In this document: positions 10,087-34,970 of the stretch, piece after piece
Layout: every line of letters begins with the position of its first letter
Position numbering within the stretch: position 1 is the first letter of the stretch
Source of the DNA: Metarhizium brunneum
Taxonomy: Eukaryota > Ascomycota > Sordariomycetes > Hypocreales > Clavicipitaceae
Assembly: GCF_013426205.1 (NCBI RefSeq)
Contig: NC_089422.1
Span: 992,001 to 1,056,000, forward strand
Reading direction: 5' to 3'
Length of the DNA stretch: 64,000 bases
The notes under the pieces: model-generated
What the model saw: only the letters and a program-made list of their open reading frames with translations
The model's database searches: none
Told to the model about the DNA's origin: nothing
Made by a program: the position numbers and the translations under genes

Positions 10087-10240
10087 TATAAAATATATAC
10101 CTAGTTACTATAAAATATATACCTAGTTACTATAAAATATATACCTAGTTACTATAAAATATATACCTAGTTACTATAAAATATATACCTAGTTACTATA
10201 AAATATATACCTAGTTACTATAAAATATATACCTAGTTAC
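10087..10240. repeat. Tandem repeat, 7 x 22 bp
   Basis: Seven head-to-tail copies of an AT-rich 22-bp unit containing ATACCTAGTTACT; the CC pair recurs at 10100, 10122, 10144, 10166, 10188, 10210 and 10232. Copies are essentially identical, with a degenerate partial eighth copy after 10240. It starts 12 bp after the ankyrin stop codon. There are no unique spacers between units, so it is a minisatellite and not a CRISPR array. Confidence 0.95.
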
Positions 10241-11151
10241 TAGAAAATATATAAAATATATTAAAATCTACCCTCTGTAATAAGAGGGAAAACTATAATA
10301 TAAAGCTACTTTTTATTAACTAGCTTTATAGTATTCTTCTTAATTTTCCCTTTTATTTCTTTTTTTTTTCTTACTTTTTTAGTTATTTTATTAAGTTTTT
10401 TAACTTTTTTAGTATTTTTAGCTTTTAATAATATATTTTTCTTCTTATTAATATTTTTTATAATAATAGCTTTTTTATTACCTTTTTAGGCTTATTAGTT
10501 TTAATCCTTAAAATTATAATAAGTAACTTACTTATATTAGGCTTATTATTTTTTTTAGTACTAATTATAATTATAGTTATTAATTATTAACTAAGTTTAA
10601 TATTAATAAGTACTTTAAGAAGTAATATAAAGCTAAAAACCTATAAGTAGCTGCTTTATAAAGTAATTTATTTAAATTAGGTATATAAAGGCAAAATAAG
10701 GTAATTATAAAGAAAATAATAGGCTTTATAAAAGTCAGGACTTTATTAATTTATATTATATTAGATTACTCTAAGTTTTTTGGGGTATAACTTACATAGT
10801 TATAAGTTACTATTATTATTATATACTTTTATTAGCATATAAAGTTATAAATCACCTTTTAAGCTAGTAAATTTAACGTATTATAATACGTGTATATAAT
10901 GTTTTTTAAATTATATATTACTATTAAATTAGCTAGGTATAGCTATTAATTATATTACTAGTAGGTCCTGGTAATTAACTAGCCTTTTTTTTATTTTTTT
11001 TATTATAATTTCATATATTAAAATCTATTAAAATATAAATTATAATAGCTTAATATTTAATTTAGTTAAAGTTTTTACCTCCTGCTATATTTTAGTATAA
11101 AACAAAATCTATATACTATATATTAAAAGGTATATATTTACAAAAATAGTT
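10241..11151. repeat. RIP-degraded AT-rich relic of unknown origin
   Basis: About 0.9 kb with the same extreme AT bias as the retrotransposons but outside the left target duplication of element A (11152-11156). I see no LTR end here and no match to the gag, RT or LTR segments of A, B or C. It contains a perfect 16-bp palindrome centred on TTATAA at 10876-10891 and a few surviving CpG pairs. It was probably already present and AT-rich when A inserted at its right edge. It may be the remnant of a different element; identity unknown. Confidence 0.5.
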
Positions 11152-11156
11152 ATTTA

Positions 11157-11603
11157 TATTACAACCTAGCCGCAAGCTGTAATATAAATTATAAGAGTAA
11201 GCTAAATTATATAAACTACTATATAATATAAGCAAGAAAAACTATAAAATAATAATTAATATAAGCTATTAATAAAAAAATACTTATTATATATAAAATA
11301 AGTAATATAAGTAATTATAATAAAATTAATATAAGTAATATTATTACTTATATTTAAGGTAAATAATTATTATAATATATAAGAACTTTTAAATTTATTT
11401 TATAAATAAACTTTAATTTCTTAGCTTTTAATATAAATTATTATATTAAATAAGCTTTATTTATAACTTTTTAATTCTAATTATTTAATTATAATTTATA
11501 ATTTATTATTAATATAATAATTAATTACTTAAATTAATTACTTTAATTATTTTATTAATATAAATTATAATTAATTTATTTTTTAAAAATCTTAATTATT
11601 ATA
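11157..11603 (+). repeat. 5' LTR of element A
   Basis: 447 bp, same length as its partner at 34293-34739, and shares with it an internal AT segment (ATATATAAAATAAGTAATAT and following) not present in the B or C LTRs. Heavily RIP-mutated, but the inner start-side CCTAGCCGCAAGCTG still keeps CpG. An 11-nt segment at 11423-11433 is complementary to the sequence just inside the LTR (11604-11614). Confidence 0.92.
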
Positions 11604-12420
11604 TATTAAAAGCTTTTATTTAAATTATTATTATATTACTTTAAGTAATACTTAATAATTATTAATATAATATTATATAAGCTTATTATTATATTTAAAT
11701 TAAATAAAACCTAAAAAGAATTAATAATTATTTTTACTTATAAAATACTTATTAAAATTATATACTTTTAAGAATAAATTTAATAAATAAAAAAAAAATA
11801 ATAAAAATAAGCTATAATTATTATTATAATTAAAAAAAACTTAAAAAAAATCTTTAAATCTAAAATATTAAGCTTATATAATAGATTTTTAGGTATACTT
11901 TAAGGATTTTTTATTTAATTTAAAGCTTATTATTAATAATTTTTAAATAAAATAAAAAAATCTTTTATTAAAATATTTTATATAAAAAAATATATAATAA
12001 AAGTAATATTTATATAATTTAAACTTATTATAAAAAATTATTTTAATAAAAAAAAATTATTATAAAAAAGAAATTAATATTATTTTTAAAAATTATAATA
12101 AATTTAAAAAAGCTATTAAAAAAGCTTTTAAAATAATTAATAAAACTAAAGCTATTAAATATTATATTAATAAATTTAAGTAAAAAAAATTAATTTTTAA
12201 TTATATTATTTACTTTAAATAACTTATATTTTAGCTTAATTAAAAAAATAAGTCTTTTATATTAACCTTTTATAAAAAGCTTAAAAAAAAGTTAAAAATA
12301 AATTTTATAAAAAAAATAAACTAAATAATTTATTAAATTATATTATTATAATAATATAAATTAATAATAAATAATATTAATAATATATATAAAAAAAATA
12401 AAATAAAAAAACCTAAAACT

Positions 12421-12866
12421 TATTACAACCCAGTCATAAGCTGCAGCGTAGGTCGCAGGTTAGGCTGGCTATATAAGCCACAAAACAGTACAAGTATAAT
12501 AAGTAATAAATTAATAGTTAAAATAAGCTATTAATAAGGAAAAGTTTACTAACTATTTAATAAACTCTAAATAAACTAATAATATATATATAATTATAAT
12601 TTACTAGGACTTTAATAAATAATAAGTAAATACTATAATATATAAGAACCCTTAAATTCACTTTATAAATAGACTTTAACTCCTTAGCTTTTAATATAAA
12701 TTATTATATTAAATAAGCTTTACTTATAACTCTTTAACTCTAATTACTTAATTATAATTTATAACCTATTATTAATATAATAATTAACTGCTTAGATTAA
12801 TTACCTTAGTTATTTTATGAATATAAACTATAACTAGTTTATCCCTTAGAAACCTTAGTTATTACA
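12421..12866 (+). repeat. 5' LTR of element B
   Basis: 446 bp, beginning TATTACAACCCAGTCATAAG and ending in TTATTACA. The first 80 bp keep several CpG and GC-rich words (GCTGCAGCGTAGGTCGCAGG). The segment 12686-12696 is complementary, over 9 uninterrupted positions, to the sequence immediately after the LTR. Confidence 0.92.
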
Positions 12867-15800
12867 CGTTAAAAGCTCTTATTTAAATAATTATTATATT
12901 ACTTTAAGTAATATCTAATAATTATTAAGATAGCACTTATAATACCTACCTTATTTAAGGTAATTATATTATTAATACCTTAAAAACCTTAAAGCCTTAG
13001 ACCCTAAGACCTTATAATTAAACTTATATAATTATACTAATAAGTTAAGTAACTTAGCCTTAAATATTAAATACTTATATTAAAATAAAAAGACTTAAAA
13101 GAGATTATTAAGCTTAAAGCACTAAAACTTTATAATAGTAACCTAAGAATACTCTAAGAATTCTTAATCTAGCTTAAAGTATATTACTAATTTTACTTAA
13201 ATAAGTTAATTAATATATAAGTAAAAGTGTTATATATTAAAAGATATATAATAAGTATTATACTTATATAATTTAAATTAATTATATAAAATTATTTTAT
13301 TAATATAAGAAATAATTAAGAAGATAAAATAAAAGAAATATTTATTAATTATAAAAAATTTAAAAAAGTAATTAAAAAAACATTTAAATTAACTAATAAA
13401 GTAAAAACCATAATTATTTATATAAATTAACTTAAATAAAAAGGATTTATATTAGATTATATAGCATATTTTAAATAAGTTATTTTAGTACTAGACTAGG
13501 AAAATAAGCTACTTATATTAGCCTTCTTTAAAAAACTAAAAAAAGAAATTAAGAATAAATTATATAAAAAAAACATACTAAATAACTTCTTAGATTATAT
13601 AATAATAATAGTTTAAATTAATAATAAATAATATTAGTAATATATATAAAAGTAATAAGAAAAAGAAACCTAAAACCCTATAAAAAAAAAGAATAATAGG
13701 TAAACTAAAAGAAAAGGCAAGAAGAACTTATTACTTATAATTATACTTTTAATCTTAAATAAATAAAGCTTAATATTACTAAAAAGAATAATAAGAAAAA
13801 AAAAATACTATAATTATAAAAAACCAGGATATTTTACTAATAAATATAAGAAACCTAAGAAAAAATAAAAATTAGTACTAAAAAAAGGTAAAAAATAGCT
13901 TAATATTACTAATTAATAAAAAAATAAAATTATTAAACTAAAAGTAAAATATAAGAACCTTAATTAGACCTTTTATTATAATAATAATTATTATATTTAT
14001 ATAAGTAATAAATAAGAAAAAGAATAATTTTTAAAAGAATTAAAAAAACTAAGAAAAAAAATTATAAACTTTATAAGAAATAGGTTATAAGTAGCTAAAT
14101 AATTAATATAAGAAAAACTAAATAAATAATTAATAAAAAAGAAAACTCTTATAATAATAAAATAAAAAAAACTTTATAAACTAAAATTATTAAAATATTT
14201 AAATAAAAACTTATATTAAGAAATCCTTAATTAGGTATAATAATAAGTAAAAGTAAGGAAAATTTAAAGGGAATAATAATATAAAAAGAAGTAAAATATA
14301 TAAATTTTTACCCCTTTTAATAAATTAAAAAATAAAGTAAAGGAAATAAGTATTAATAATAATAATATAATCTTAAATACTTTAGAATTATTTAAAAATA
14401 AATAAAATAAAAAAGAAATATTAATAAGGCTAATAATTATATAAAAGTAAGCTATATAATAATATTTCCTTATATTAATAAGAAAATATTTTATAATTCT
14501 TATTTTAATAATAAATATTATTATAATAATAAAAAACTAAATATTATAATTTTTAAAAAAAGAAAAAGAAAATAATTTTAGACTCTTATTAAAATATATA
14601 AAGTATATATATTTAATATAAGTATTATATATATTTATAATATATTAGGTATATTTTATAATTAAGATATAATTAAATATATTTTTAATTAAAATAAAAG
14701 GATATTTAATTAAAGTATTATATTTTAAATAAAAACTCTTAAAATAAAAAGTAAAAATAATTAATAATAATTAAATAATAATCTTAGAACCTAATTTAAA
14801 TATACCTATTAAATATTAAGCTTATATAAATCTTATAAATATATATAAATTAAATATATATTAATTATATATATATATATAAAATAAGTAGTAATATTAA
14901 TATATATATAAGGGAAAAATTCTAATATATAAAAAAAAGTTATTACTTAAGTTATCTTAATATAAAATAAAAGATTATATAATATACTTATTATTAAATT
15001 ATTTAAAATATATAATAAATAAGACTAAGAAATAATATAAGTAATAATATAAAATATTAATAGTATATAAATAAATATAATAAGTATTAAATATACTTAA
15101 ATAAAAAAATTCTAAGGGAATTATAAAATTAATATATTATAATAAATAAAGGTTAAATAAGTAATATTATAAATAAAAGTTTAATCTTAAATATAATAAG
15201 AAATATATAATAAATTATAATAACTTAAAATATAAAAAGTATAAAAAAATAAAAAACTAAATTTATAATTACTTATATTAAATATTTAATAATAGGTTTT
15301 ATTTTAAGTACTTATAAAATAAAACTAGACTTATAAAATAATATTAAGAAATAAAATAATAAATTATAAAAAAATTTATTTTAAAAAACTTAAAAAATAA
15401 AGCATATTATTTATAAAAAAGCTATAAGCTAGTATAAAAAAAAAACGCTAATAACCCTTAATATAATCTAAGATAAATAAAGTAATAAAATAGTATTAAA
15501 TATTAAAGTTATAAAATATTATATTTATATACTTATAAATAATAATATAATAAGTAATTATATTTTACTTAAAGTTATAAATTATTATTAATTATTATAA
15601 AAATATAAAAAAATATTATATAAGTTAATTAATATTAAAGGAAAACTTTTTATTTATAATAATAGAATTATTAATTAAGAAACTAATTATCTTAAAGTAT
15701 AAATTTAAGGTTATTTAAAAGTAATTTAACTTAATATTATAAATATATTAAAATATAACCTAGTATTAAAGTACCTATAATTATAAGAGAGTAACCTATT

Positions 15801-16209
15801 AATTAATTAAAAAATAAGCTAATTAAAATAAAATAAGATTTTAAGCTAATAAAATTAATAAAATTTAAAAGAAAAAATAAAATTTTATTATAACTTAGCT
15901 TATAAATAAAATTCTAAAAAAAAGGAACCTTTAAGTAAGTTATTTAAGAATTAATAATAATAAATAAATAATATAAAAATAATAAGTATAAAGAAAAGAA
16001 TAATTAGATCTATTATAATAACCTTAATAGTATTATAAATTAGGATATAAATAATAATAAGTAATAAGAAGATAAAAGCTAAGATTTAAAAGGTTATTAT
16101 TACCTTAAGGAAAAACCTTATAAATATAAATAAAAAACTTAAAGAAAAAAAGAAAAATAAAAATAATAAAAATAATAAAAGCCTAATAATAAAAAAAAAA
16201 AAACTTAAA
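12867..16209 (+). pseudogene. Element B gag and early pol relic
   Basis: Coding remnant between the 5' LTR of B and the insertion point of C. At 13806-13850 fifteen codons keep exact CX2CX4HX4C zinc-knuckle spacing, but all four ligand positions (1, 4, 9 and 14) now encode Tyr, as G-to-A in TGY codons and C-to-T in CAT would produce. Upstream sequence aligns by eye with the gag remnant of A at 11640-12410. The following 2 kb should be protease and linker, but I cannot place the catalytic Asp. Stops occur in all frames. Confidence 0.75.
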
Positions 16210-16214
16210 AATAT

Positions 16215-16654
16215 TATAATAGCTTAGGTTCCTAAGGGATAAACTAGTTATAGTTTATATTAGTAAAGCTATTAAGGCAGTTAATTTAAGCAGTTAGGTA
16301 TTATATTAGTAATAGGTTATAAACCGTAATTAAGTAATTAGAGTTAAAGAGTTATAAGTAAAGCTTATTTAATATAATAATTAATATTAAAAGCTAAGAA
16401 GTTAAAGTTTATTTATAAAGTAATATTAGGGGTTCTTATATATTATAATAGATTACTTCTCTTATTATAATATTTCCCTTTAGATTATTATTATAACTAT
16501 AATCTTACTTATATAGATTATGGTTTCTTTTATAATTTAAATATAATAGTTACTTTAACCTTTAATTTATTATTTGCCCTGCTTATATTACCTTATAGCT
16601 TATATAGCTAGCCTAACTTATAGCCTGCTTCTTATATATAACTAGGTTATAATA
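16215..16654 (-). repeat. 3' LTR of element C
   Basis: 440 bp, aligned over its whole length by eye with the LTR at 23640-24079. All differences I noticed are C/T or G/A transitions, as RIP produces; I saw no indel. Its outer end reads TATAATAGCTTAGG on the plus strand and abuts the aatat target duplication. Confidence 0.92.
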
Positions 16655-17419
16655 TAATATCCCTTTTCTTATAGTTTTATTCTTAAGACCTAAGTTTTAT
16701 TTTATAAATAGCTTTATAGCCTTTTCTTTTATTAATAAGTTCTCTTTTTCTTTTATTTTTTAGGATATTTTATTAATATTATATCTGGTTATATTTTTAA
16801 GCTAAAATTAAATATAAAGAAAAATAATAATTATAAATATACTAATTTTATTAATATTATAAATTTATTTAGCTGCTTTATAAATATACCTTATACTTAT
16901 TATTTTAAAAATAGTAAATTCTATTATATAATAAATAAGAAATTATAATATAATAAGTATATATAGTATAATTACTTATATAATAGTATTTTAATAGCTT
17001 TTTCTTATAGGTATTATTATAGCTCTTATTTTATTTATATTCTTTTATTAATAATATTTCTTAGTAATATACTTATTAAAGTAATAAAAGAAACTAAAGT
17101 TAAAGGAGGAGAAGGCAGGTAATAAGCTATTAAAGCTTTATATATAGCTAACTAACTTTTAGTTTTAGCTTTTTATAGCTATAAATTAATTAGCTTAAAT
17201 ATAAAAAATCTAGAATTATATTAAGAATAAGAGTTTAAAATTATTTTATTATAATATAATAAAGTTAAATACTAAGGATAAGATTTTATTTACTTTAAAT
17301 ACTTATAAGTATTAAGTAATAAATAATTTAGGTATAATAGGTATTTTTAAAAAAAGTAATTAGTCTACTTTTAGGTTAAGTAAGGAGTTCTTAGATCTAG
17401 GTCCCCTTATACCTTTTAT

Positions 17420-20400
17420 GCTTTTTAGTAAAATTACCTTAATAAGTACTAGTATTTTCTTAAGTGCTTTATAGGTTCTTATATATTTTCTTTATATTTA
17501 TAGTCTTTTTACTTAATAAGGTATTAATATATTTTATTTTTTATCTTTATATCTAAGATTTATTTTACTTTATATTCTTTATTATTTAAGACTTTAATAT
17601 CTTTTTTTATTAATATATTATTTAATATTTTCTTAAGAAGTAAAATATATATTATAAGATAATTCCTTATAGTTTTTAATAATAAAAGTTTATAATTATT
17701 TATTAATATTTATTTTTTAATAATAAATAGTCCTAATTTTTTATAATTTAATTTATTACTTAGTTATATTATTTTAATATTTTATTAGAGTAAGTAAACT
17801 ATGTTTTCCTCCTTAAAAATTAGTTCCTTTAATTTTTTATAATTATAATATTATATTATTTTATTTTATATAAATTTTAATTTATATTATATTTTTTTAT
17901 ATAATCTTTTTAGTTTATTTACTTATAATATTATTTATTTTACTTATAGTTCTTTATATTATATTTAAAATACTTTAGGATTAAATTTATAATTAGTATA
18001 AGCTAGTATTTATTTTATTAATTCTAATATTAAGTTATTATAAGCTAATTATATTATAAGTAATTATTTAACTTAATTATTTTATTAATAATTAATATAG
18101 TATTATAAATATTATTTAAGTATTTAGTTTAATTTTTTTATTTATTTATTTATTTATAAGTAATATATAATACTTAACTTATAATTTATTTTAAGTTATA
18201 CTATAAATACTTACTAAAACTTAAAGGTAAATATACTTTTTTTATTTAATATAATTTTCTTTAATAGCTTATAATTACTTATTATTATTTATAAGAATAT
18301 ATATATAAGTTTTTTTATATTATTTACTTTTTTATATAGTAAAAAGTATTTATACTTTATAAGTTTATTTATAATTATAAATATATTATTATATTTTATA
18401 TTAGTTATTAGTTTTTTTAATATTAGTAGCTTTATAATATAATTAAAAGCTATTAATTCTTATAATTATATTAGTACTAGTAATAGTTATAATTCTTTAT
18501 ATAGCTTATATTATAAAGCCTTACTTTTTTTATATTATATATATTTATTAATAATCTTTTTAATTATTTTCTTAATTCCTAAAAAATCGTATTATTATTA
18601 TATCTTATTTAATATCTTATAAATTTCTTAATATTTATAAACTAAATATTTATATATTTCTTTAATATATTCTTCTTATAATTCTAGTAATATTTAGATT
18701 TTCTCTTTATATATTAGTACTTCTCTTAAGTAGTATATATATCTTATTAGTATATCCCTAATATATTATATATTATTTATTATTTATTAGTATATTTTAT
18801 TATATATTAGGTTTTTTTTTTATACTTTTAATATAATATTTAGTTATTTTTACTAAAAATTATTATTTTTATTAATCTTAAGAAATTATCTTATTATTAT
18901 AAGTACTTTTATATTATAATTATTTTTTTAACTTAAAGTATTTACTTATTTATTTTTAGATTCTTTTTAATAAATAATTTTATAATTAAATTCTAAAAAA
19001 TATTTAGCTTATTAAATTTATTATTTATTTAATTATTATATTATTATAAAATAAAAAATATTCTTATAATTAATATATATCTTAACTTTATATTTATTTT
19101 TTATAAAATAATATTTAAATTTCTTAAAAGTATTAATAATTATTAAGAATTCTTTATTATAAATAAGGTAATTAAGTTCTACTTTATAAAGTTTTTTTAA
19201 GTAAAATATAATAAGATATAATTTCTTATTATTATCTTTTTATTTAATTTATACTCTTAAAGTAAAATTTAAAAAATTAGTTTTTAATTTTATTTTTTTT
19301 TTTAGGTTAAAAGTTCTTAAAATAGGTTTAAATATAATAAGTTCTTTAATTTTATTAAAAGTATATTATACCTTATTATTTTAATTTTATTACTTATTTT
19401 TCTTAATAAGTTTATTTAAAAGTATTATAATTTTATTATAACTCTTAATAAATCTTTTATAATAGTTTATAAAGCTCTTAAAGCTTTATATATTCTTAAT
19501 ATTTTTTAATATTAGCTAGTTTCTTATTACCTTTACTTTAGATTTTTTTATTTATATTTTATTTAATTATATTATATATCTTAAAAAGTTTACTTCTTAT
19601 ATATAAAATTTATTTTTTATTAGTTTTATTAATAATTTTATGTTTTATAATGCTTATAATACCTTATATATATATCTTTTATAGTTTTTTAGGGTTTTTA
19701 AGAAGATTAATATATTATTTAAATATACTATTATAAAATTATTTAAATATTTTTATAATATATTATTAATTATTTATTAAAATATTATTAATATATTAAT
19801 AAGCTTAAATAATATTATTAAGTATTTAAATAATTTAAACTTTATTTTAAAAGCTATCTTTTATTTATAATCTTTTTTTATTTAAATTAAATTATATATT
19901 CTTTTTAGGTTTAAAGTAATAAATTAATTTATTTTATATAATTAATCTTATAATTCTAATATAAGTAATAATAATATTTAATCTTTTATAATAATTATAT
20001 TTAATTACTAATAATTTACTATTAATTATAGTTTTTTATTCTTTTTTAGAATAAATATAATTAGGTATTTAGCTTTTAATATAAATACTTTAATATAGCT
20101 TTTTATTAGTATTTTATTAATATATTCTTATAATATTTTAAGTTCTTTTATATTTAAGTTATAAATCTTATAAAATATTATTAATTTTTTATTTATTAAG
20201 TTAATTTAATAATTTTATTAATTATATTCTAATAGTTTAGTTTTTAATTCTTTTATAAATAATTTTTTATATTTTTAGTATTTTTTAGGAATATTCTTAA
20301 GTTTTTTTTTTTTTATTATTAAGCTTTTATTATTTTTATTATTTTTATTCTTTTTTTTTTTTTTAAGTTTCTTATTTATATTTATAAGGTTTTTTCTTAA

Positions 20401-23400
20401 GGTAATAATAACCTTTTAGATCTTAGCTTTTATTTTCTTATTACTTATTATTATTTATATTCTAGTTTATAATATTATTAAGGTTATTATAATAGATTTA
20501 ATTATTTTAACTGCTTTTTTACTACTTATTTATTATTATTAGTCCTTAAATAACTTACTTAAAGGTTCTTTTTTTTTAGAATTTTATTTATAAGTTAAAT
20601 TATAATAAAATTTTATTTTTTCTTTTAAATTTTATTAATTTTATTAGCTTAAAGTCTTATTTTACTTTAATTAGCTTATTTTTTAGTTAATTAATAGGTT
20701 ACTCTTTTATAATTATAGGTATTTTAATACTAGGTTATATTTTAATATATTTATAATATTAAGTTAAATTACTTTTAAATAACCTTAAATTTATACTTTA
20801 AGATAATTAGTTTTTTAGTTAATAATTTTATTATTATAAGTAAAAAGTTTTCTTTTAATATTAATTAACTTATATAATATCTTTTTATGTTTTTATAGTA
20901 ATTAGTAATAATTTATAACTTTAAGTAAAATATAATTACTTATTATATTATTATTTATAAATATATAAATATAATATTTTATAATTTTAGTATTTAATAT
21001 TATCTTATTACTTTATTTATTTTAGGTTATATTAAGGGTTATTAATATTTTTCTTTTTATATTAGCTTATAGCCCTTTTATAGATAGTATGCCTTATTTT
21101 TTAAGTTTTTTAAAATAGATTTTTTTATGATTTATTATTTTATTTCTTAGTATTATTTTATAAGTTTAGTTTTATTTTATAAGTACTTAAAGTAAAACCT
21201 ATTATTAAATATTTAATATAAGTAGTTATAAATTTAATTTTTTATTTTTTTATATTTTTTATATATTAGGTTATTATAGTTTATTATATATTTTTTATTA
21301 TATTTAGGGTTAAACTTTTATTTATTATATTACTTATTTAGATTTTATTTATTATAATATATTAATTTTATAATTCCCTTAGGGTCTTTTTATTTAAGTA
21401 TATTTAATACTTATTATATTTATTTATATATTATTAGTATTTTATATTATTACTTATATTATTCCTTAGTTTTATTTATTATATATTTTAAATAATTTAA
21501 TAGTAGATATATTATATAATTTTTTATTTTATATTAAGATAACTTAAGTAATAATTCTTTTTTATATATTAGGATTTTTCTCTTATATATATACTAATAT
21601 TATTACCTATTTTTTATATATATATATAATTAATATATATTTAATTTATATATATTTATAAAGTTTATATAAGCTTAATATTTAATAGGTATATTTAAAT
21701 TAGGTTCTAAAATTATTATTTAATTATTATTAATTATTTTTACTTTTTATTTTAGAAGTTCTTATTTAAAGTATAATACCTTAATTAAATATTCTTTTAT
21801 TTTAATTAAAAATATATTTAATTATATTTTAATTTAAAAGTATACTTAATATATTATAAATATATATAATACTTATATTAAATATATATACTTTATATAT
21901 CTTAGTAAGAGTCTAGGATTATTTTTTTTTTCTTTTTTTAAAAACTATAATATTTGATTTTTTATTATTATAATAATATTTATTATTAGAATAAAAATTA
22001 TAAAATATTTTCTTATTAATATAAGGAAATATTATTATATAGCTTATTCTTATATAATTATTAGCTTTATAAGTGTTTTTTCCTTATTTTATTTATTTTT
22101 AAATACTTTTAAAGTATTTAAAATTATATTATTATTATTAATACTTATTTCCTTTATTTTATCTTTTAGTTTATTAAAGGTAATAAAGATTTATATATTT
22201 TATTTCTTCTTATATTATTATTTCCTTTAAATTTTTTTTATTTTTACTTATTATTATACTTAATTAAGAATTTCTTAGTATAAGTTTTTATTTAAATATT
22301 TTAGTGATTTTAGTTTATAAAGTTTCTTTTATTTTATTATTATAAGTATTTTTTTTTTTATTAATTATTTATTTAGGTCTTTTTATATTAGTTATTTAAT
22401 TACTTATAACCTATTTTTTATAAAGTTTTATAATTTTTTTTTTTAGTTTTCTTAGTTTTTTTAAAGATTATTCTTTTTTTTATTTATTACTTATATAAAT
22501 ATAATAGTTATTATTATAATAAAAGGTTTAGTTAAGGTTTTTATATTTTACCTTTAATTTAATAACTTTAATTTTTTATTAATTAATAGAATTAAGTTAT
22601 TTCTTATTTCTTTTTAATATTAGCTTTTATTTTTTTTTAGGTTTCTTATATTTATTAATAAAATATCTTAGTTTTTTATAATTATAATATTTCTTTTCCT
22701 TTTTATTATTTTTTTTAGTAATATTAAGCTTTATTTATTTAGGGTTAAAAGTATAATTATAAGTAATAGGTTTATTATACTTCTTATATTAATTAGCTTA
22801 ATAACTTTTTCTTTTAATAAGGCTTTAGGTTTTTTTACCTTATTTCTTTTATATATATTACTAATATTATTTATTATTAATTTATATTATTATAATAATA
22901 TAATTTAATAAGTTATTTAGTTTATTTTTTTTATAAAGTTTATTTTTAATTTTTTCCTTAAGTTTCTTATAAAAGGTTAATATAAGAGGTTTATTTTCTT
23001 AGTTAAGCTAAGATATAAGTTATTTAAAGTAAGTAATATAATTAGATATTAATCTCTTTTACTTAAGCTTATTAATATAGTACTTAATAGCTTTAGCTTT
23101 ATTAATTATTTTAAAGGCTTTTTTAATAGCTTTTTTAAACTTATTATAACTTTTAAAAATAGTATTAGTTTCTTCTTTATAGTTATTTTTTTTTTATTAA
23201 GATAGTCCCTTATAATAGGTTTAAATTATATAAGTATTACTTTTATTATATACTTTTTTATGTATAATACTTTAATAAAGAATTCTTTTATTTTAATTAA
23301 GAATTATTAATAATAAGCCTTAAGTTAAGTAAGGAATTCTTAAAGTATATCTAGGGATTTATTATATAGTTTTAGTATTTTAGGTCTAAGAATTTCTCTT

Positions 23401-23639
23401 AAGTTCTTTTTAATTATAATAGTAATTATAGCTTATTTTTATTATTTTTTTTTTATTTATTAGACTTATTCTTAAAAGCATATAATTTTAATAAGTATTT
23501 TATAAGTAAAAATAATTATTAATTCCTCTTAGGTTTTATTTAATTTAAATATAATAATAGTTTTATATAGTATTATATTAATAGTTATTAGGTATTACTT
23601 AAAGTAATATAATAATAGTTTAAATAAGAGCTTTTAATA
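17420..23639 (-). pseudogene. Element C gag-pol relic
   Basis: Minus-strand coding remnant running from inside the 5' LTR towards the chromodomain. Legible pieces are the Tyr-substituted CCHC spacing at 22689-22645, a reverse transcriptase core reading FIIVYLNNILIF around 19740-19700 (the family has YLDD, both Asp codons changed by G-to-A), and a chromodomain-like stretch ending near 17,420. Stops interrupt each domain. The 11 nt directly after the LTR (23639-23629 on the minus strand) pair perfectly with an internal LTR segment at 23820-23810. Confidence 0.8.
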
Positions 23640-24079
23640 TATAATAGCTTAGGTTCTTAAGGGATAAACTAGTTATAATTTATATTAATAAAGCTATTAA
23701 AGTAGTTAATCTAAGTAATTAAGTATTATATTAATAATAAGTTATAAACTATAATTAAGTAATTAGAGTTAAAAAGTTATAAGTAAAGCTTATTTAATAT
23801 AATAATTAGTATTAAAAGCTAAGAAGCTAAAGTTTATTTATAAAGTAATATTAAGGGTTTTTATATATTATAATAAATTACTTCTCTTATTATAATATTT
23901 CCCTTTAGATTATTATTATAATTATAATCTTACTTATATAAATTATGGTTCCTTTTATAATCTAAATATAATGGTTACTTTAACCTTTAATTTATTATTT
24001 GCCTTACTTATACTGCCTTGTAGCTTATATAGCCGGCCTAACTTGTAGCCTGCTTCCTGCATACGACTAGGTCGTAACA
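23640..24079 (-). repeat. 5' LTR of element C
   Basis: 440 bp and the best-preserved LTR in the window. On the minus strand it opens TGTTACGACCTAGTCGTATG and keeps several CpG pairs over its first 80 bp. It shares its first 60-80 bp and its last 200 bp with the A and B LTRs, but the middle is different. Confidence 0.93.
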
Positions 24080-24084
24080 AATAT

Positions 24085-26940
24085 CCCTAAAAAATACCAG
24101 AAATATAAAAAATTATTTATAAAAAAATTAAAAACTAGATTACTTAAATATAATTAATAGAATTATAAAATTAAATTAATAAATAAAAAATTAATAATAT
24201 TTTATAAGATTTATAACTTAAATATAAAAGAACTTAAAATATTATAAGAATATATTAATAAGATATTAATAAAAAGTTATATTAAAATATTAATATTAAA
24301 AGCTAAATACCTAGTTATATTTATTCTAAAGAAAAATAAAAAATTATAATTAATAATAGATTATTAGTAATTAAACGTAATTATTATAAAAGATAAAATA
24401 TTATTACTATTAATATTAGAACTATAAGACTAATTATATAATATAAATTAGTTTATTATAATAAACCTAAAAGGAGTATATAACTTAATTTAAATAAAGA
24501 AGGGTTATAAATAAATAATAGCTTTTAAAATAAAATTTAAATTATTTAAATACTTAATAATATTATTTAAGCTTATTAATATATTAATAATATTTTAATA
24601 AATAATTAATAATATACTATAAAAATATTTAAATAATTTTATAATAGTATATCTAAATAATATACTAATCTTCTTAAAAACCCTAAAAAACTATAAAAGA
24701 TATATATATAAGGTATTATAAGTATTATAAAACATAAAATTATTAATAAAACTAATAAAAAGTAAATTCTATACCTAAAAAATAAACTTTTTAGGATATA
24801 TAATATAATTAAATAAGATATAAATAAAAAAAATAAAAATTAAGGTAATAAAAAACTAACTAATATTAAAAAGTATTAAAAATATATAAAGCTTTAAAAG
24901 CTTTATAAACTATTATAAAAGATTTATTAAAAGTTATAATAAAATTATAATACTTTTAAATAAACTTATTAAAAAGAATAAGTAATAAAATTAAAATAAT
25001 AAGGTATAATATACCTTTAATAAAATTAAAGAACTTATTATATTTAAACTTATTTTAAAAACCTTTAATTTAAAAAAAAAAATAAAATTAAAAACTAATT
25101 TATTAGATTTTACTTTAAGAATATAAGTTAAATAAAAAAATAATAATAAAAAATTATACCTTATTATATTTTACTTAAAAAAACTTTATAAAGTAAAACT
25201 TAATTACCTTATTTATAATAAAAAATTCTTAGTAATTATTAATACTTTTAAGAAATTTAAATATTACCTTATAAGAAGTAAATATAAAGTTAAGATATAT
25301 ATTAATTATAAAAATATCTTTTACTTTATAATAATATAATAATTAAATAAATAATAAATTTAATAAGTTAAATATCTTTTAGAATTTAACTATAAAATTA
25401 TTTATTAAAAAGAATCTAAGAATAAATAAGTAAATACTTTAAGTTAAAAAAGTAATTATAATATAAAAGTATTTATAATAATAAAATAACTTCTTAAAAT
25501 TAATATAAATAATAATTTTTAGTAAAAATAATTAAATATTATACTAAAAGTATAAGATAAAAACCTAATATATAAGAAAATCTAATAATAAGTAAAGGAA
25601 AAGATTAGGTTTATAAACACGCTAAAAAAATATCTTATAGAACCTAGAACTATCCTAAAGTATTATAAAAAAACCTAGATACCTCTAGAGTTATAAGAAG
25701 AATATATTAAAGAAATATATAAATATTTAGTTTATAAATATTAAGGAATCCATAAAATATTAAATAAAATATAATAATAATATAATTTCTTAGGAATTAA
25801 GAAAATAATTAAAAAGGTTATTAATAAATATATATAATATAAAAAAAGTAAAGCTTTATAATATAAGCTATATAAAGAATTATAACTATTACTAATACTA
25901 ATATAATTATAAGAATTAATAGCTTTTAATTATATTATAAAGCTATTAATATTAAAAGAACTAATAACTAATATAAAATATAATAGTATATTTATAGTTA
26001 TAAATAAACTTATAAAATATAAATACTTTTTATTATATAAAAAAGTAAATAATATAAAAGAACTTATATATATATTCTTATAAATAATAATAAGTAATTA
26101 TAAGTTATTAAAGAAAATTATATTAAATAAAAAAAGTATATTTACCTTTAAATTTTAATAAGTACTTATAATATAACTTAAAATAAATTATAAGTTAAGT
26201 ACTATATATTATTTATAAATAAATAAATAAATAAATAAAAAGATTAAATTAAATACTTAAATAGTATTTATAATATTATATTAATTATTAATAGAATAAT
26301 TAGGTTAAATAGTTACTTATAATATAATTAGCTTATAATAGCTTAATATTAGAATTAATAAAGTAAATACTAGCTTATATTAATTATAAATTTAACCTTA
26401 AAGTATTTTAAGTATAATATAAAAGACTATAAGTAAAATAAGTAATATTATAAGTAAATAAACTAAAGAAATTATATAAAAAAATATAATATAAATTAAA
26501 ATTTATATAAAATAAAATAATATAATATTATAATTATAAAAAATTAAAGGAATTAATTTTTAAGAAGGGAAATATAGTTTACTTACTTTAATAAAATATT
26601 AAAATAATATAATTAAGTAATAAATTAAATTATAAAAAATTAAGATTATTTATTATTAAAAAATAAATATTAATAAATAATTATAAACTTTTATTATTAA
26701 AAATTATAAGAAATTATTTTATAATATATATTTTACTTCTTAAAAAAATATTAAATAATATATTAATAAAGGAAAATATTAAAGTTATAAATAAAATAAA
26801 GTATAAAGTAAAATAAATCTTAAATATAAAAATAAAAAATAAAATATACTAATATTTTATTAAATAAAAAAAACTATAAAGATAAGAAAAATATATAAAA
26901 ACCTATAAAATACCTAAAAAATTACTAGTACTTATTATAA
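24085..26940 (+). pseudogene. Element B reverse transcriptase, integrase and chromodomain relic
   Basis: Pol of element B resumes immediately after the right target duplication of C. From about 24330 a single frame, read through stops, gives recognisable Ty3/gypsy reverse transcriptase blocks (LNVIIIKDK, INLKGVYNLI, then FIIVYLNNILIF with the active site at 24650-24661). RNase H is expected next but is less clear. Integrase follows: KYQGIHK and YKKSKAL near 25735-25860 mark the zinc-binding HHCC region, then a degraded catalytic core. The chromodomain around 26800-26930 identifies the group as a chromovirus. Most Trp, Gln and Arg codons have become stops, as RIP predicts. Confidence 0.85.
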
Positions 26941-27700
26941 TAATATTACTAGTAGTTTATAACTTAGTACTAAGTAAAGCGCCTTAGTCTAAAATATTAA
27001 AGGCATCTTAGTCTTAAGTATTTTAAATAGCCTTAGACTTTTATTATTAAACTTACTTTAATTTATACTTTTAAGCTTTCTTCTCCTTTTTTTTTTAATT
27101 TATATCTTTTATCTCCTTTAAAAAAGTAAAGTTATAATAAGCTATTTTTAGACCTTTTTTATATAAATAATAATATATATATTAAAAATATATTAAATAA
27201 TTTAAGGCCTTATTTATTTCTAGCTAAGCCTTATAATACCTCTTAATTAATAGTTTTTTTATTAATTTCTCCTTCTTTTTAAGCTAATAAAGTTTCTTAA
27301 TAATATAATTTATTAGAATATATTAATAGTATATATTATAATAAGAAAACCTTATATATATAGTTTATTATAAGAGTATAAGAATTATTATAAAAATAAC
27401 CTAAAAAATAATAAAGAATATAATAATTAATACTCTTAATAACCTAATAAAAACTTTTTTTTTTAAAATAATAATTATAAAGTAATACCTTAAAACCTTA
27501 TTTATAAATAAAAGTAATAATTATAATATAATTAATAATAGAATAAGATCTCTTAGGTTTTTTTATATAATTAAATATAATAAAGGAAAAATATTATAAA
27601 GAAGTAAAATACTTATAACTAATAAAAGAAAAGGTAAATAAAATTATTTATAAAATAAGGCTTAGGTCTTAAGGGTAAAACTATAAAAAAGGGGATATTA

Positions 27701-28146
27701 TATTATAACCTAGTTATAAGCTATAATATAGATTATAAGTTAAGCCAGCTATATAAGCTATAAGACAGCGTAAGTATAATAAGTAATAGATTAATAGTTA
27801 AAATAAGCTGCTAATAAGAGAGAGTTTACTAATTATTTAGTAAACTCTAGATAAACTAATAGTATATATATAACTATAATTTATTAGGACTTTAATAAAT
27901 AATAAGTAAATATTATAGTATATAAGAACCCTTAAATTTACTTTATAAATAAACTTTAACTTCTTAGCTTTTAATATAAATTATTATATTAAATAAGCTT
28001 TACTTATAACTTTTTAACTCTAATTACTTAGTTATAATTTATAACTTATTACTAATATAATAACTAACTGCTTAGATTAATTGCCCTAGTTATTTTGCTA
28101 ATATAAACTACGATTAGTTTATCCCTTGGGAACCTTAGCCGTTATA
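27701..28146 (+). repeat. 3' LTR of element B
   Basis: 446 bp, preceded by a purine-rich stretch (AAAAAAGGGGA at 27685-27695) that could be the polypurine tract. It ends CCTTAGCCGTTATA and abuts the aaact duplication at 28147. Its last 60 bp keep more G and C than the 5' partner. Confidence 0.92.
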
Positions 28147-28151
28147 AAACT

Positions 28152-31100
28152 TTATTAAAAAAAAAGTTATTAAGCTAATTAATATAAAAAATATAATAAA
28201 CTTATTATTTATAATTATACTTTTAATTTTAAATAAATAAAGCTTAATATTATTAAAAAAATAATAAAAAAAAAATATTATAATTATAAAAAACTAAAAT
28301 ATTTTATTAATAAATATAAAAAACCTAAAAAAAAATAAAAGTTAATATTAAAAAAAAATAAAAAATAATTTAATATTATTAATTAATAAAAAAATAAAAT
28401 TATTAAACTAAAAATAAAATATAAAAATTTTAATTAAACTTTTTATTATAATAATAATTATTATATTTATATAAGTAATAAATAAAAAAAAAAATAATTT
28501 TTAAGAAAATTAAAAAAACTAAAACAAAAAATTATAAATTTTATAAAAAATAAGCTATATATAATTAAATAATTAATATAAAAAAAACTAAATAAATAAT
28601 TAATAAAAAAAAAACTTTTATAATAATAAAATAAAAAGAATTTTATAAATTAAAATTATTAAAATATTTAAATAAAAACTTATATTAAAAAAATTTTAAT
28701 TAAATATAATAATAAATAAAAATAAAAAAAATTTAAAAAAAATAATAATATAAAAAAAAATAAAATATATAAATTTTTATTTTTTTTAATAAATTAAAAA
28801 ATAAAATAAAAAAAATAAATATTAATAATAATAATATAATTTTAAATATTTTAAAAGTATTTAAAAATAAATAAAATAAAAAGAAATATTAATAAAATTA
28901 ATAATTATATAAAAGTAAATTATATAATAATATTTTCTTATATTAATAAGAAAATATTTTATAATTTTTATTATTATAATAAATATTATTATAATATTAA
29001 AAAACCTAATATTATAATATTTAAAAAAAAAAATAACTTTAAACTTTTATTAAAATATAAAAATTATATATAATTAATATAAATATTATATATATTTATA
29101 ATATATTAAATATATTTTATAATTAAAATATAATTAAATATATTTTTAATTAAAATAAAAAAATATTTAATTAAAATATTATATTTTAAATAAAAACTTT
29201 TAAAATAAAAAATAAAAATAATTAATAATAATTAAATAATAATTTTAAAATTTAATTTAAATATACTTATTAAATATTAAGCTTATATAAATTTTATAAA
29301 TATATATAAATTAAATATATATTAATTATATATATATATAAAAAATAAATAATAATATTAATATATATATAAAAAAAAATTCTAATATATAAAAAAAAAT
29401 TATTATTTAAATTACCTTAATATAAAATAAAAAACTATATAATATACTTATTATTAAATTATTTAAAATATATAATAAATAAAGCTAAAAAATAATATAA
29501 GTAATAATATAAAATATTAATAATATATAAATAAATATAATAAATATTAAATATATTTAAATAAAAAAACCTTAAAAAAATTATAAAATTAATATATTAT
29601 AATAAATAATAATTAAATAAATAATATAATAAATAAAAGTTTAACCTTAAATATAATAAAAAATATATAATAAATTATAATAATTTAAAATATAAAAAAT
29701 ATAAAAAAATAAAAAACTAAATTTATAATTATTTATATTACATATTTAATAATAAGTTTTATTTTAAGTACTTATAAAATAAAATTAAACTTATAAAATA
29801 ATATTAAACTTATAAAATAATATTAAAAAATAAAATAATAAATTATAAAAAAATTTATTTTAAAAAACTTAAAAAATAAAATATATTATTTATAAAAAAG
29901 CTATAAGCTAATATAAAAAAAATATTAATAACTTTTAATATAATTTAAAATAAATAAAATAATAAAATAATATTAAATATTAAAATTATAAAATATTATA
30001 TTTATATATTTATAAATAATAATATAATAAATAATTATATTTTACTTAAAATTATTAATTATTATTAATTATTATAAAAATATAAAAAAGTATTATATAA
30101 ATTAATTAATATTAAAAAAAAACTTTTTATTTATAATAATAAAATTATTAATTAAAAAACTAATTATTTTAAAATATAAATTTAAAGTTATTTAAAAATA
30201 ATTTAACTTAATATTATAAATATATTAGAATATAATCTAATATTAAAATATTTATAATTATAAGAAAATAACCTATTAATTAATTAAAAAATAAGTTAAT
30301 TAAAGTAAAATAAAATTTTAAGTTAATAAAATTAATAAAATTTAAAAAAAAAATAAAATTTTATTATAATTTAACTTATAAATAAAATTTTAAAAAAAAA
30401 AACTTTTAAGTAAATTATTTAAAAACTAATAATAATAAATAAATAATATAAAAATAATAAGTATAAAAAAATAATTAGATTTATTATAATAACCTTAATA
30501 ATATTATAAATTAAAATATAAATAATAATAAATAATAAAAAAATAAAAGCTAAAATCTAAAAAATTATTATTATTTTAAAAAAAAATCTTATAAATATAA
30601 ATAAAAAACTTAAAAAAAAAAATAAGAATAATAAAAATAATAAAAGCTTAATAATAAAAAAAAAAAACTTAAAAATATCCCTAAAAATACTAAAAATATA
30701 AAAAATTATTTATAAAAAAATTAAAAATTAAATTACTTAAATATAATTAATAAAATTATAAAATTAAATTAATAAATAAAAAGTTAATAATATTTTATAA
30801 AATTTATAATTTAAATATAAAAAAACTTAAAATATTATAAAAATATATTAATAAAATACTAATAAAAAGTTATATTAAAATATTAATATTAAAAGCTAAA
30901 TACTTAATTATATTTATTTTAAAAAAAAATAAAAAATTATAATTAATAATAAATTATTAATAATTAAATATAATTATTATAAAAAATAAAATATTATTAT
31001 TATTAATATTAAAATTATAAAATTAATTATATAATATAAATTAATTTATTATAATAAACTTAAAAAAAGTATATAATTTAATTTAAATAAAAAAAATTAT

Positions 31101-33560
31101 AAATAAATAATAACCTTTAAAATAAAATTCAGATTATTTAAATATTTAATAATATTAATAAAGCTTATTAATATATTAATAATATTTTAAAAAATAATTA
31201 ATAATATATTATAAAAATATTTAAATAATTTTATAATAATATATTTTAATAATATATTAATTTTCTTAAAAATCTTAAAAAACTATAAAAAATATATATA
31301 TATAATATTAAAAATATTATAAAATACTAAATTATTACTTAAATTAATAAAATATAAATTTTATATATAAAAAATAAACTTTTTAAAATATATAATATAA
31401 TTAAATAAAATATAAATAAAAAAAATAAAAATTAAAATAATAAAAAACTAATTAATATTAAAAAATATTAAAAATATATAAAGCTTTAAAAGCTTTATAA
31501 ATTATTATAAAAAATTTATTAAAAGTTATAATAAAATTATAATACTTTTAAATAAACTTATTAAAAAAAATAAATAATAAAATTAAAATAATAAAGTATA
31601 ATATACTTTTAATAAAATTAAAAAACTTATTATATTTAAACTTATTTTAAGAATTTTTAACTTAAAAAAAAAATAAAACTAAAAATTAATTTATTAAATT
31701 TTATTTTAAAAGTATAAATAAAATAATAAAATAATAATAAAAAATTATATTTTATTATATTTTATTTAAAAAAATTTTATAAAATAAAACTTAATTATTT
31801 TATTTATAATAAAAAATTCTTAATAATTATTAATACTTTTAAGAAATTTAAGTATTACTTTATAAAAAATAAATATAAAATTAAAGTATATATTAATTAT
31901 AAAAATATTTTTTATTTTATAATAATATAATAATTAAATAAAAAATAAATTTAATAAGTTAAATATTTTTTAGAATTTAATTATAAAATAATTTATTAAA
32001 AAAAATCTAAAAATAAATAAATAAATACTTTAAATTAAAAAAGTAATTATAATATAAAAGTATTTATAATAATAAAATAACTTTTTAAAATTAATAAAAA
32101 TAATAATTTTTAATAAAAATAATTAAATATTATATTAAAAGTATAAAAAAAAACTTAATATATAATAAAATATATTAATAAGTAATAAATAATATATAAT
32201 ATATTAAGAATATATTAATAATATATAATATATTAAGAATATATTAATAAAATATATATATTACTTAAAAAAAATATTAATATATAAAAAAAAAATCTAA
32301 ATATTATTAAAGTTATAAAAAAATATATTAAAAAAATATATAAATATTTAATTTATAAATATTAAAAAATTTATAAAATATTAAATAAAATATAATAATA
32401 ATATAATTTTTTAAAAATTAAGAAAATAATTAAAAAAATTATTAATAAATATATATAATATAAAAAAAGTAAAGCTTTATAATATAAATTATATAAATAA
32501 TTATAATTATTATTAGTATTAATATAATTATAAAAATTAATAGCTTTTAATTATATTATAAAGCTATTAATATTAAAAAACTAATAATTAATATAAAATA
32601 TAATAATATATTTATAATTATAAATAAACTTATAAAGTATAAATACTTTTTATTATATAAAAAAATAAATAATATAAAAAAACTTATATATATTTTTTTA
32701 TAAATAATAATAAGTAATTATAAATTATTAAAAAAAATTATATTAAATAAAAAAAGTATATTTATTTTTAAGTTTTAATAAGTATTTATAATATAATTTA
32801 AAATAAATTATAAGTTAAGTATTATATATTATTTATAAATAAATAAATAAATAAAAAAAATAAATTAAATATTTAAATAATATTTATAATATTATATTAA
32901 TTATTAATAAAATAATTAAGTTAAATAATTACTTATAATATAATTAGCTTATAATAGCTTAATATTAAAATTAATAAAGTAAATATTAGCTTATATTAAT
33001 TATAAATTTAATCTTAAAGTATTTTAAATATAATATAAAAAACTATAAATAAAATAAGTAATATTATAAGTAAATAAATTAAAAAAATTATATAAAAAAA
33101 TATAATATAAATTAAAATTTATATAAAATAAAATAATATAATATTATAATTATAAAAAATTAAAAAAATTAATTTTTTAAAAAGAAAATATAATTTATTT
33201 ACTTTAATAAAATATTAAAATAATATAATTAAATAATAAATTAAATTATAAAAAATTAGGATTATTTATTATTAAAAAATAAATATTAATAAATAATTAT
33301 AAATTTTTATTATTAAAAACTATAAAAAATTATTTTATAATATATATTTTACTTTTTAAAAAAATATTAAGTAATATATTAATAAAAAAAAATATTAAAA
33401 TTATAAATAAAATAAAATATAAAATAAAATAAATTCTAAATATAAAAATAAAAAATAAAATATATTAATATTTTATTAAATAAAAAAGCTATAAAAATAA
33501 AAAAAATATATAAAAGCTTATAAAGTATTTAAAAAATTATTAATACTTATTATAATAATA
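28152..33560 (+). pseudogene. Element A gag (3' part) and pol relic
   Basis: Continuation of element A after B. It starts with a zinc-knuckle remnant at 28276-28320 (same Tyr-for-ligand pattern as B) and runs in parallel with the B sequence through reverse transcriptase, where the active site at 31242-31253 reads YFNN, integrase and chromodomain. Mutation load is visibly the highest of the three. A stretch near 32200-32250 has a short tandem duplication of an AATATATTAATA-type unit absent from B. No frame is open. Confidence 0.82.
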
Positions 33561-34292
33561 TTATTAATAATATTTAATAAGGTATTCTTAAATATAATAT
33601 TTTAATTTAATATATTAATAATACCTAAAAACTATATATTAATAATAATTTTAAATTTATAATACTTTTTTTTATTTAATTTATTTAATAATTATAAACT
33701 TAAATAAATTATTTTATTTTTTTTTAAAAGTAATTAATACTTTTACTTATATAATTACTTTAAATAATTTAAGAATTTATTTAAATTAACTTATATTTAA
33801 TATAATACTTTATAATAAAAAATAAAAAGTTTTTTAATAAACTTTTTTTTTTAATTTAAATATTTTAACTTAAAAATAATTTAATTAATTAAAAAATATT
33901 TATTAATAAAAAGTAATAATATATAAAAAAAGTATTTATATAAATTAATTATAATATTAAAAGTATTATAAAAATACTTTTATTATATATACTTTTTATA
34001 TTTTAAAAAATACTTAATTATTTTATAATAAAAACTATAAGTAAAATAAAAAAAATATAATATAATATTAAAGCTATAAAAATTTATATATATTATTAAG
34101 ATATTTTAATAATATATAAAATTTAATTTTAGTTTTAATTTTTAAACTTTAAAAAAATAATTAAATATAATATTAAAAAAATATTATAAAAAATAAAAAA
34201 AAAAAAACTTATTAATAAAAAAAATAAAATATAAAATTATTTATAAAATAAACTTAAGTTTTAAAAGTAAAATTATAAAAGAAAAAATATTA

Positions 34293-34739
34293 TATTATAA
34301 CCTAATTATAAGCTATAATATAAGTTATAAAAATAAGTTAAATTATATAAATTATTATATAATATAAGTAAAAAAAACTATAAAATAATAATTAATATAA
34401 GCTATTAATAAGAAAATACTTATTATATATAAAATAAGTAATATAAGTAATTATAATAAAATTAATATAAGTAATATTATTACTTATATTTAAGGTAAAT
34501 AATTATTATAATATATAAAAACCCTTAAATTTACTTTATAAATAAACTTTAATTTCTTAGCTTTTAATATAAATTATTATATTAAATAAGCTTTATTTAT
34601 AACTTTTTAACTCTAATTACTTAATTATAATTTATAACCTATTATTAATATAATAATTAACTGCTTAAATTAATTACTTTAGTTATTTTACTAATATAAA
34701 CTATAACTAGTTTATCCCTTAGGAACCTTAGCCGTTACA
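34293..34739 (+). repeat. 3' LTR of element A
   Basis: 447 bp, ending CCTTAGCCGTTACA and directly followed by the attta target duplication and then normal-GC host sequence. The last 60 bp are much less mutated than the same part of the 5' LTR. Confidence 0.92.
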
Positions 34740-34970
34740 ATTTATCGTGGCCAGAATAGCACCCTGTAATTATATAAAGTAATACGTCTTGTGATACTAA
34801 CAGGAGACTGTAGTTCTCACAAACGGGATAGCAAGCTTATCAGCAAAAACGTCTTTGTTATTCATTTTTATTAAAACCCAGTCCTAGATATCCTTCATGT
34901 ACATATTCTCCATCCACTCATCAGTCGTGAGGTATGAGAGCCGGGAATTCATAGCTTTCACATTATCACT

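Follow-up and report, generated by a model that had tools for sequence, protein, structure and literature searches.

How do three retrotransposons come to lie one inside another at a single site, and what made the DNA there so rich in A and T? These questions are raised by a stretch of 64,000 nucleotides (the window) at positions 992,001-1,056,000 of contig 1 of the insect-killing fungus Metarhizium brunneum ARSEF 4556, whose genome assembly holds 37,771,916 bp in seven contigs. An earlier note, made from the letters of the window alone, had resolved an AT-rich island of 23.6 kb into three chromovirus retrotransposons, A containing B and B containing C. Our findings show the nest to be real, exactly described and built of known kinds of element, and add two things which that note had not seen: repeat-induced point mutation (RIP) as the origin of the island, and unmutated copies of the same family elsewhere in the genome. 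We consider it likely that three insertions of one chromovirus lineage succeeded each other here, transposition alternating with RIP, and that a later burst left unmutated copies on which RIP has not acted effectively since.

Three Elements, One Inside Another

The coordinates of the nest, the paired lengths of its long terminal repeats (LTRs; 447/447, 446/446, and 440/440 bp) and three perfect 5-bp target site duplications (TSDs) were all reproduced to the base by self-comparison and direct reading; net sizes of 7,852, 7,856, and 7,865 bp for A, B, and C follow from the coordinates. In window positions, the parts are as follows.

11152-11156, no strand: left TSD of A, ATTTA (direct reading)
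11157-34739, plus strand: element A, outermost, holding B and C (self-comparison, LTR pair, empty site)
11157-11603, plus strand: 5' LTR of A, 447 bp (LTR alignment)
12416-12420, no strand: left TSD of B, AAACT (direct reading)
12421-28146, plus strand: element B, within A, holding C (self-comparison, LTR pair, empty site)
12421-12866, plus strand: 5' LTR of B, 446 bp (LTR alignment)
16210-16214, no strand: left TSD of C, AATAT (direct reading)
16215-24079, minus strand: element C, innermost and reversed, pol in a single frame except for stops (LTR pair, alignments)
16215-16654, minus strand: 3' LTR of C, 440 bp, 40 transitions from its partner (LTR alignment)
23640-24079, minus strand: 5' LTR of C, 440 bp (LTR alignment)
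24080-24084, no strand: right TSD of C, AATAT (direct reading)
27701-28146, plus strand: 3' LTR of B, 446 bp, 57 transitions and one transversion from its partner (LTR alignment)
28147-28151, no strand: right TSD of B, AAACT (direct reading)
34293-34739, plus strand: 3' LTR of A, 447 bp, 42 transitions and nothing else from its partner (LTR alignment)
34740-34744, no strand: right TSD of A, ATTTA (direct reading)

The nesting fixes the order of insertion with certainty as A, then B, then C, and the three belong to one lineage, as had been claimed. C is reversed: its RNase H piece lies on the minus strand, whereas A and B have theirs on the plus strand. When written in purine/pyrimidine letters, which hide RIP, each element matches from end to end a naturally occurring unmutated copy, 7,811 bp long, of this genome. 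The empty-site check that the earlier note had proposed was made without joining flanks, against an uninterrupted genomic copy: the left piece of A ends at position 1251 of that copy and the right piece starts at 1256, and the pieces of B end at 3780 and start at 3785. Both sites resume exactly 5 bp apart, the gap being the duplication itself. LTRs that resembled each other more across elements than within them had been named as a sign against nesting; the reverse was found. Within elements the pairs are identical at 0.906, 0.870, and 0.909 (A, B, C), with 42, 58, and 40 differences and no gap columns, whereas all twelve comparisons across elements give lower identities (0.706-0.796) and show 39-56 transversions and 3-23 gap columns each. 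Judged by eye, these cross-element differences gather in the 5' half of the LTR.

That part of the nest is an artefact of assembly seems extremely improbable. The assembly combines Nanopore R9.4.1 and Illumina reads (as described in passages of PMC7842015), and the single-base indels in the core of A (15 of 15) are deletions at stretches of at least five A, the kind of error expected of Nanopore reads; yet three different perfect TSDs stand exactly at the LTR ends, the LTR pairs are gap-free and of three types, the junctions resume exactly 5 bp apart, and seven other nests in the genome have both flanks continuous in the coordinates of one copy.

A Chromodomain-Bearing Ty3/gypsy Family

What these elements are is best read from the unmutated relative. 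From stop to stop, it has a frame of 851 amino acids (aa; gag with a zinc knuckle) and, overlapping it, a 1,277-aa pol frame in the order protease, reverse transcriptase (RT), RNase H, integrase, and chromodomain (RVT_1 at residues 385-545, RNase H at 633-739, the integrase zinc domain at 838-896, the integrase core at 941-1016). The chromodomain (PF00385, 70.8 bits) occupies residues 1211-1260 of 1,277, behind the integrase, and bears out the name chromovirus. In tblastn searches with this pol, C aligns over residues 3-1259 in a single frame, B with frame shifts and a final stretch (1224-1259) at E = 0.24, and A scattered across three frames; the RT, RNase H, and integrase order within the window is seen through these alignments. 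In a Pfam search of five pieces of the window, the three RNase H pieces pass and the two integrase pieces do not. The chromodomain model found no match in the window at E values up to 1, and the region is visible there by alignment only, in C and A and, weakly and frame-shifted, in B.

19039-19239, minus strand: RNase H piece of C, PF17917, 33.7 bits
25136-25336, plus strand: RNase H piece of B, PF17917, 32.2 bits
31730-31927, plus strand: RNase H piece of A, PF17917, 25.2 bits
17428-17574, minus strand: stretch of C aligned to the chromodomain of the unmutated pol (computed from alignment)
26802-26949, plus strand: stretch of B corresponding to the chromodomain, with a frame shift and a final part at E = 0.24 (computed from alignment)
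33418-33564, plus strand: stretch of A aligned to the chromodomain of the unmutated pol (computed from alignment)

Four mutated copies elsewhere carry a degenerate chromodomain, all with stops, 1,298-1,301 bp behind the RT query; two score above the curated cut-off, one at it, and one below. The family is thus a chromodomain-bearing Ty3/gypsy element. Its closest pol records come from M. brunneum (98% identity; the homologue is named "Transposon Tf2-12 polyprotein" at NCBI), Metarhizium robertsii (94%), and Metarhizium guizhouense (93%). A phage collection gave no match to the pol protein, and a separate search of Rfam gave no match either.

The LTRs of the window begin with TG in one of six cases and with TA in five, and end with CA in two (the 3' LTR of A and the 5' LTR of B) and with TA in four, as RIP would leave TG...CA; unmutated copies retain TG...CA. 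The element is apparently self-priming: one base behind the 5' LTR begins a run of ten nucleotides complementary to positions 256-265 of the LTR, a match found in shuffled LTRs at a frequency of 0.0024, and the TGG of a tRNA primer site is absent from the first 20 nucleotides behind the LTR. Tf1/Sushi elements are marked by a primer-binding site that pairs with the beginning of their own RNA, and we take the family to resemble the Tf1/Sushi-type self-priming chromoviruses of fungi. It shares with them the gag and protease-RT-RNase H-integrase-chromodomain layout, and the ten complementary nucleotides behind the 5' LTR may be a further likeness; it differs in that the putative complement lies inside the LTR, at positions 256-265, and in that both partners are mutated in the copies of the window. 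Skippy and MAGGY are likewise fungal Ty3/gypsy elements with 5-bp duplications.

RIP as the Source of the AT-Rich Island

RIP produced the AT-rich island. Relative to the unmutated copy, changes in the RIP direction stand against opposite transitions at 3157/32 in A, 2612/107 in B, and 2666/93 in C, and of the C/G sites in the cores 2367/2582 (92%), 2026/2572 (79%), and 2033/2621 (78%) are mutated, respectively. CpA and CpG are at least 97.5% mutated in all three, while CpC and CpT lag behind (83% in A, 53-58% in B and C); in the cores, RIP spares C before a pyrimidine. Near-equal mutation of CpA and CpG differs from the pattern of Neurospora. Between LTR partners, 139 of the 140 differences are transitions, the sole transversion, over 1,333 aligned LTR sites, falling in B. 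The genome also contains a methyltransferase gene, RID-like to judge from its sequence: a 692-aa open frame with PCQ and EQT triads within the 303-residue stretch read, triads described for RID-type enzymes (in passages of PMC6709928). A second methyltransferase gene has a frame of 1,192 aa. As for the extent of the island, the 23.6 kb of the nest stand, and the AT-rich tract is somewhat longer than had been stated, from about 10,081 to 34,744, in surroundings of about 54% GC.

The C-to-T changes could in principle reflect slow deamination of methylated cytosine during clonal growth, with no meiotic RIP and with unmutated copies that are merely too young. CpG depletion as full as that of CpA (97.5-99.5% mutated), the longer methyltransferase frame, and a sexual state described as unconfirmed in the clade (in passages of PMC7776561) would all suit such a process. 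However, in each of the three elements mutation is highest at CpA (98.7-99.9%), GC jumps where A ends on the right, from 12% in the LTR to about 53% in the flank, one transversion against 139 transitions in LTR pairs demands a very strong bias, and a RID-like open frame is present. We regard deamination as an unlikely source of the changes, and RIP as their far likelier cause.

Mutated and Unmutated Copies Elsewhere in the Genome

Searches of the genome at the DNA level scored 20-40 candidates each, and copy numbers are lower bounds. Ranked by identity to the unmutated copy, the family members among 40 scored of 43 candidates form tiers: 17 copies at 100%, 11 at 84-90%, one at 78%, and 11 at 66-70%. 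At least 17 near-identical unmutated copies exist; 16 of these 17 carry the 1,277-aa frame, which occurs in two protein variants, and the remaining one, L027, has a shorter frame. Sixteen unmutated loci, L027 not among them, went through the end-reading script and 15 are full-length; in 14 of these the two LTRs are identical and the TSDs perfect. Only L013 departs from this: it stands upstream of L012 in a tandem pair with an LTR in common, and its LTR comparison was out of register by one base; no full element was called for L012 because of the shared LTR. This pair (C3:4547700-4564999), two tandem unmutated copies with one common LTR, is a sign of LTR-LTR recombination.

The unmutated copies mostly sit in AT-rich DNA. 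Among the 15, the 400-bp flanks are below 30% GC on both sides in 11, on one side in two (L013, whose GC-rich flank is its tandem partner, and L020), and on neither side in two (L011, 0.362/0.400; L018, 0.345/0.405). In the background, one of 31 grid points is below 30%, and the both-flank comparison (11/15 vs 1/31) gives Fisher P = 1e-6; with the cut at 37% GC, both flanks pass in 11 of 15, one in four, and neither in none, the background being 1/31 at either cut. Six of the 15 (L015, L016, L017, L024, L025, L026) lie inside mutated copies of their own family with both flanks continuous; for L026, where one flank scores 338 against a maximum of 339 in 30 shuffles, this rests on coordinates.

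Both ends could be assigned in 29 of 49 mutated copies outside the window, one end in 16, and none in four. The TSDs of the 29 are perfect in 21, differ by one RIP-type transition in four, and do not match in four; of 74 flanks of mutated copies, 61 are below 30% GC, 67 below 37%, and two at or above 42%. Seven other nests were found in which both flanks continue in the coordinates of one copy. Two oppositely oriented mutated copies, C3:4587855-4595712 (plus) and C3:4602377-4610234 (minus), have exchanged TSDs (AGTAT/CCTTA vs CCTTA/AGTAT), as would result from a recombination between the two that turned round the intervening DNA of about 6.7 kb. Two further mutated copies with both ends, C3:422140-429997 and C4:204987-212842, have unrelated TSDs and are perhaps recombinants with partners outside the sample.

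The middle tier consists of the 11 copies at 84-90% identity (e.g. C1:9539407 and C3:4676464), whose adjoining chromodomain matches hold 0-4 stops, all TAG or TAA, with stops present in 10 of the 11. These few stops suggest that the differences of the tier are due to RIP, and the tier is possibly a wave that RIP met only lightly.

Are the unmutated copies a continuation of the A/B/C lineage, or did they arrive separately and recently, for example by horizontal transfer, the nest itself being correct? The LTR types of A, B, and C differ from one another, and each element shows 139-243 transversions from the unmutated copy, as a separate arrival might leave. Weighing against it are the full-length purine/pyrimidine alignment, in which C keeps one pol frame over residues 3-1259, the middle tier between old and new copies, and the closeness of pol records from M. 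robertsii (94%) and M. guizhouense (93%). A separate arrival is, in our view, quite unlikely, and we treat the unmutated copies as later members of the A/B/C lineage.

Order, RIP Load, and Dating

The earlier note had seen in the nest a dated sequence of events. The sequence holds, but the dates do not: because 139 of 140 LTR differences are RIP-type transitions, LTR divergence is not a clock and carries no time scale, and the single transversion hints at youth without giving an age. Other measures were tried and set aside. By RIP load at discordant core sites, A can be told from B (418 mutated in A alone, 67 in B alone), but B and C are on a par (211 vs 213); therefore no RIP is detectable between the arrivals of B and C. 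As a general marker of order it was rejected, the host being more mutated than its insert at identical positions in only six of nine other nests and the insert in three (Wilcoxon P = 0.20); these nine comprise the seven nests with both flanks continuous and two with one flank (copies 13 and 25), leaving out the one-flank cases 20 and 26 and the LTR-only matches 2, 8, 11, 18, and 27. Transversions from the unmutated copy, a would-be clock free of RIP, amount to 139 in A, 243 in B, and 144 in C; they do not follow the order of the nest and probably measure the source lineage, the LTR types being different. Indels in the core (A 23, B 14, C 2) would fit the order A, B, C. They were not used as proof because 15 of the 23 in A are single-base deletions at A-runs, maybe sequencing errors, and because the LTR pair of A is gap-free.

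The duplicated target bases offer evidence of another kind. If a host had been mutated only after the insertion, the two TSD copies should often differ. In B within A and seven other nests of the same family, 23 C/G sites could be compared: 18 are mutated in both copies, four kept in both, and one is discordant, against 5.1 discordant sites expected if RIP acted only after insertion (one-sided P = 0.014; expected rates derived from A or B according to sequence context and the load of the host). In the TSD of B itself, three of the four C/G sites are mutated in both copies and one is kept in both; C within B offers no site, its target having no C or G. The hosts were therefore probably mutated before they were hit, a conclusion that is weaker if the bases already differed in the source lineage of the host.

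Surrounding DNA

Left of A lies a different AT-rich sequence, 1.07 kb at 17% GC, the DNA beside which A came to lie.

10300-11150, no strand: a further repeat, AT-rich, the target DNA on the left of A; most of its copies match the first 710-770 bases

This repeat makes up most of the 1.07 kb and has at least 40 further matches at 83-90% identity (40 scored of 169 candidates), and some of its copies are inverted neighbours, e.g. C3:2770602 and C3:2771772. Between it and the end of an ankyrin-repeat frame (5696-10075) stands a 22-bp tandem repeat (10087-10253; 7.6 copies, 99% match). A flanking permease has 96% identity to a M. guizhouense protein.

A Probable Alternation of Transposition and RIP

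The reading we hold likely joins the nesting and its order, the RIP spectrum, the unmutated copies, and their AT-rich sites into one course of events. A would have inserted beside an AT-rich repeat and then been mutated by RIP; B would have entered A, and C entered B, with further RIP on all; the same lineage would later have made an unmutated burst elsewhere, mostly in older AT-rich mutated DNA. AT-rich DNA made by RIP is expected to carry histone H3 lysine 9 (H3K9) methylation, as in Neurospora, and the chromodomain of MAGGY is the usual model for targeting H3K9-methylated DNA. RIP in the sexual cycle would turn repeated copies AT-rich, and each layer would be mutated when a sexual period next came; the chromodomain that follows the integrase would steer further copies to the heterochromatin so made. 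RIP here would be meiotic and RID-dependent, and the present top layer would so far have escaped through clonal growth, the recent lineage being clonal.

Several points weigh against this course of events. B and C do not differ in RIP load; the insert is more mutated than its host in three of nine nests, making RIP load an unreliable marker of layers; and transversion counts (139/243/144) do not run in nest order. The 37% flank cut was set after the first flank values, the nests used were likewise chosen after seeing the data, and the 49 mutated copies were picked for their closeness to B or A rather than at random. Moreover, the AT-rich sites could reflect the purging of insertions into genes, or a preference of the integrase for AT-rich DNA. 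Taking alternating transposition and RIP as the frame, we lean toward reading the island and its relatives as a legible layer record of alternating sexual and clonal periods, with heavy RIP followed by a RIP-free burst despite an open RID-like gene; this reading draws on the identity tiers, on a top tier that lies mostly in mutated AT-rich DNA, and on TSD bases that keep the RIP state of the host.

Comparable systems share parts of this picture. Passages of PMC10787394 describe in crapaud of Podospora anserina LTR types that differ in the 5' half, strongly mutated next to unmutated full copies, and bursts that escape RIP. Yet P. anserina is there described as obligately sexual, whereas the clade of M. 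brunneum is without a confirmed sexual state (PMC7776561, in the passages concerned), and those passages do not centre on nests as a record of layers or on targeting by a chromodomain. In Metarhizium humberi, strong RIP is reported in a generalist Metarhizium, with 51 large RIP-affected regions of mean GC 20%; the portions of that account at hand (PMC9210286) give window statistics, without element anatomy, nesting, or unmutated family members.

A review, in its pertinent passages, finds by RIP indices that RIP occurs in narrow-host Metarhizium and not in the generalist clade that includes M. brunneum (PMC7776561), and low RIP overall, together with rid homologues, is reported for M. anisopliae, M. 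robertsii, and M. acridum (passages of PMC4133081); M. humberi, of the generalist clade, is already a printed exception (PMC9210286, in part). In the available portions of the M. brunneum genome papers (PMC7842015, PMC11457142), RIP appears only in a reference title. Earlier short-read assemblies are said to break up around repeat-rich regions (PMC7842015, in part); such DNA may have been lost from them. Among the top matches in open-licence literature, no account was found that describes this nest or an unmutated burst within the RIP islands of M. brunneum.

Nesting, chromoviruses, and RIP are each known already; what draws attention here is an unmutated burst on top of heavy RIP, in a clonal generalist supposed to be free of RIP, the long-read assembly revealing RIP near saturation in a member of a clade reviewed as RIP-free. 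For RIP genomes in general, these findings carry a warning: LTR divergence does not date the elements, and RIP load alone gives no order of insertion. Since one family combines layers that were mutated with a burst that was not, the time of the last RIP-competent sex becomes testable at defined insertion sites across isolates.

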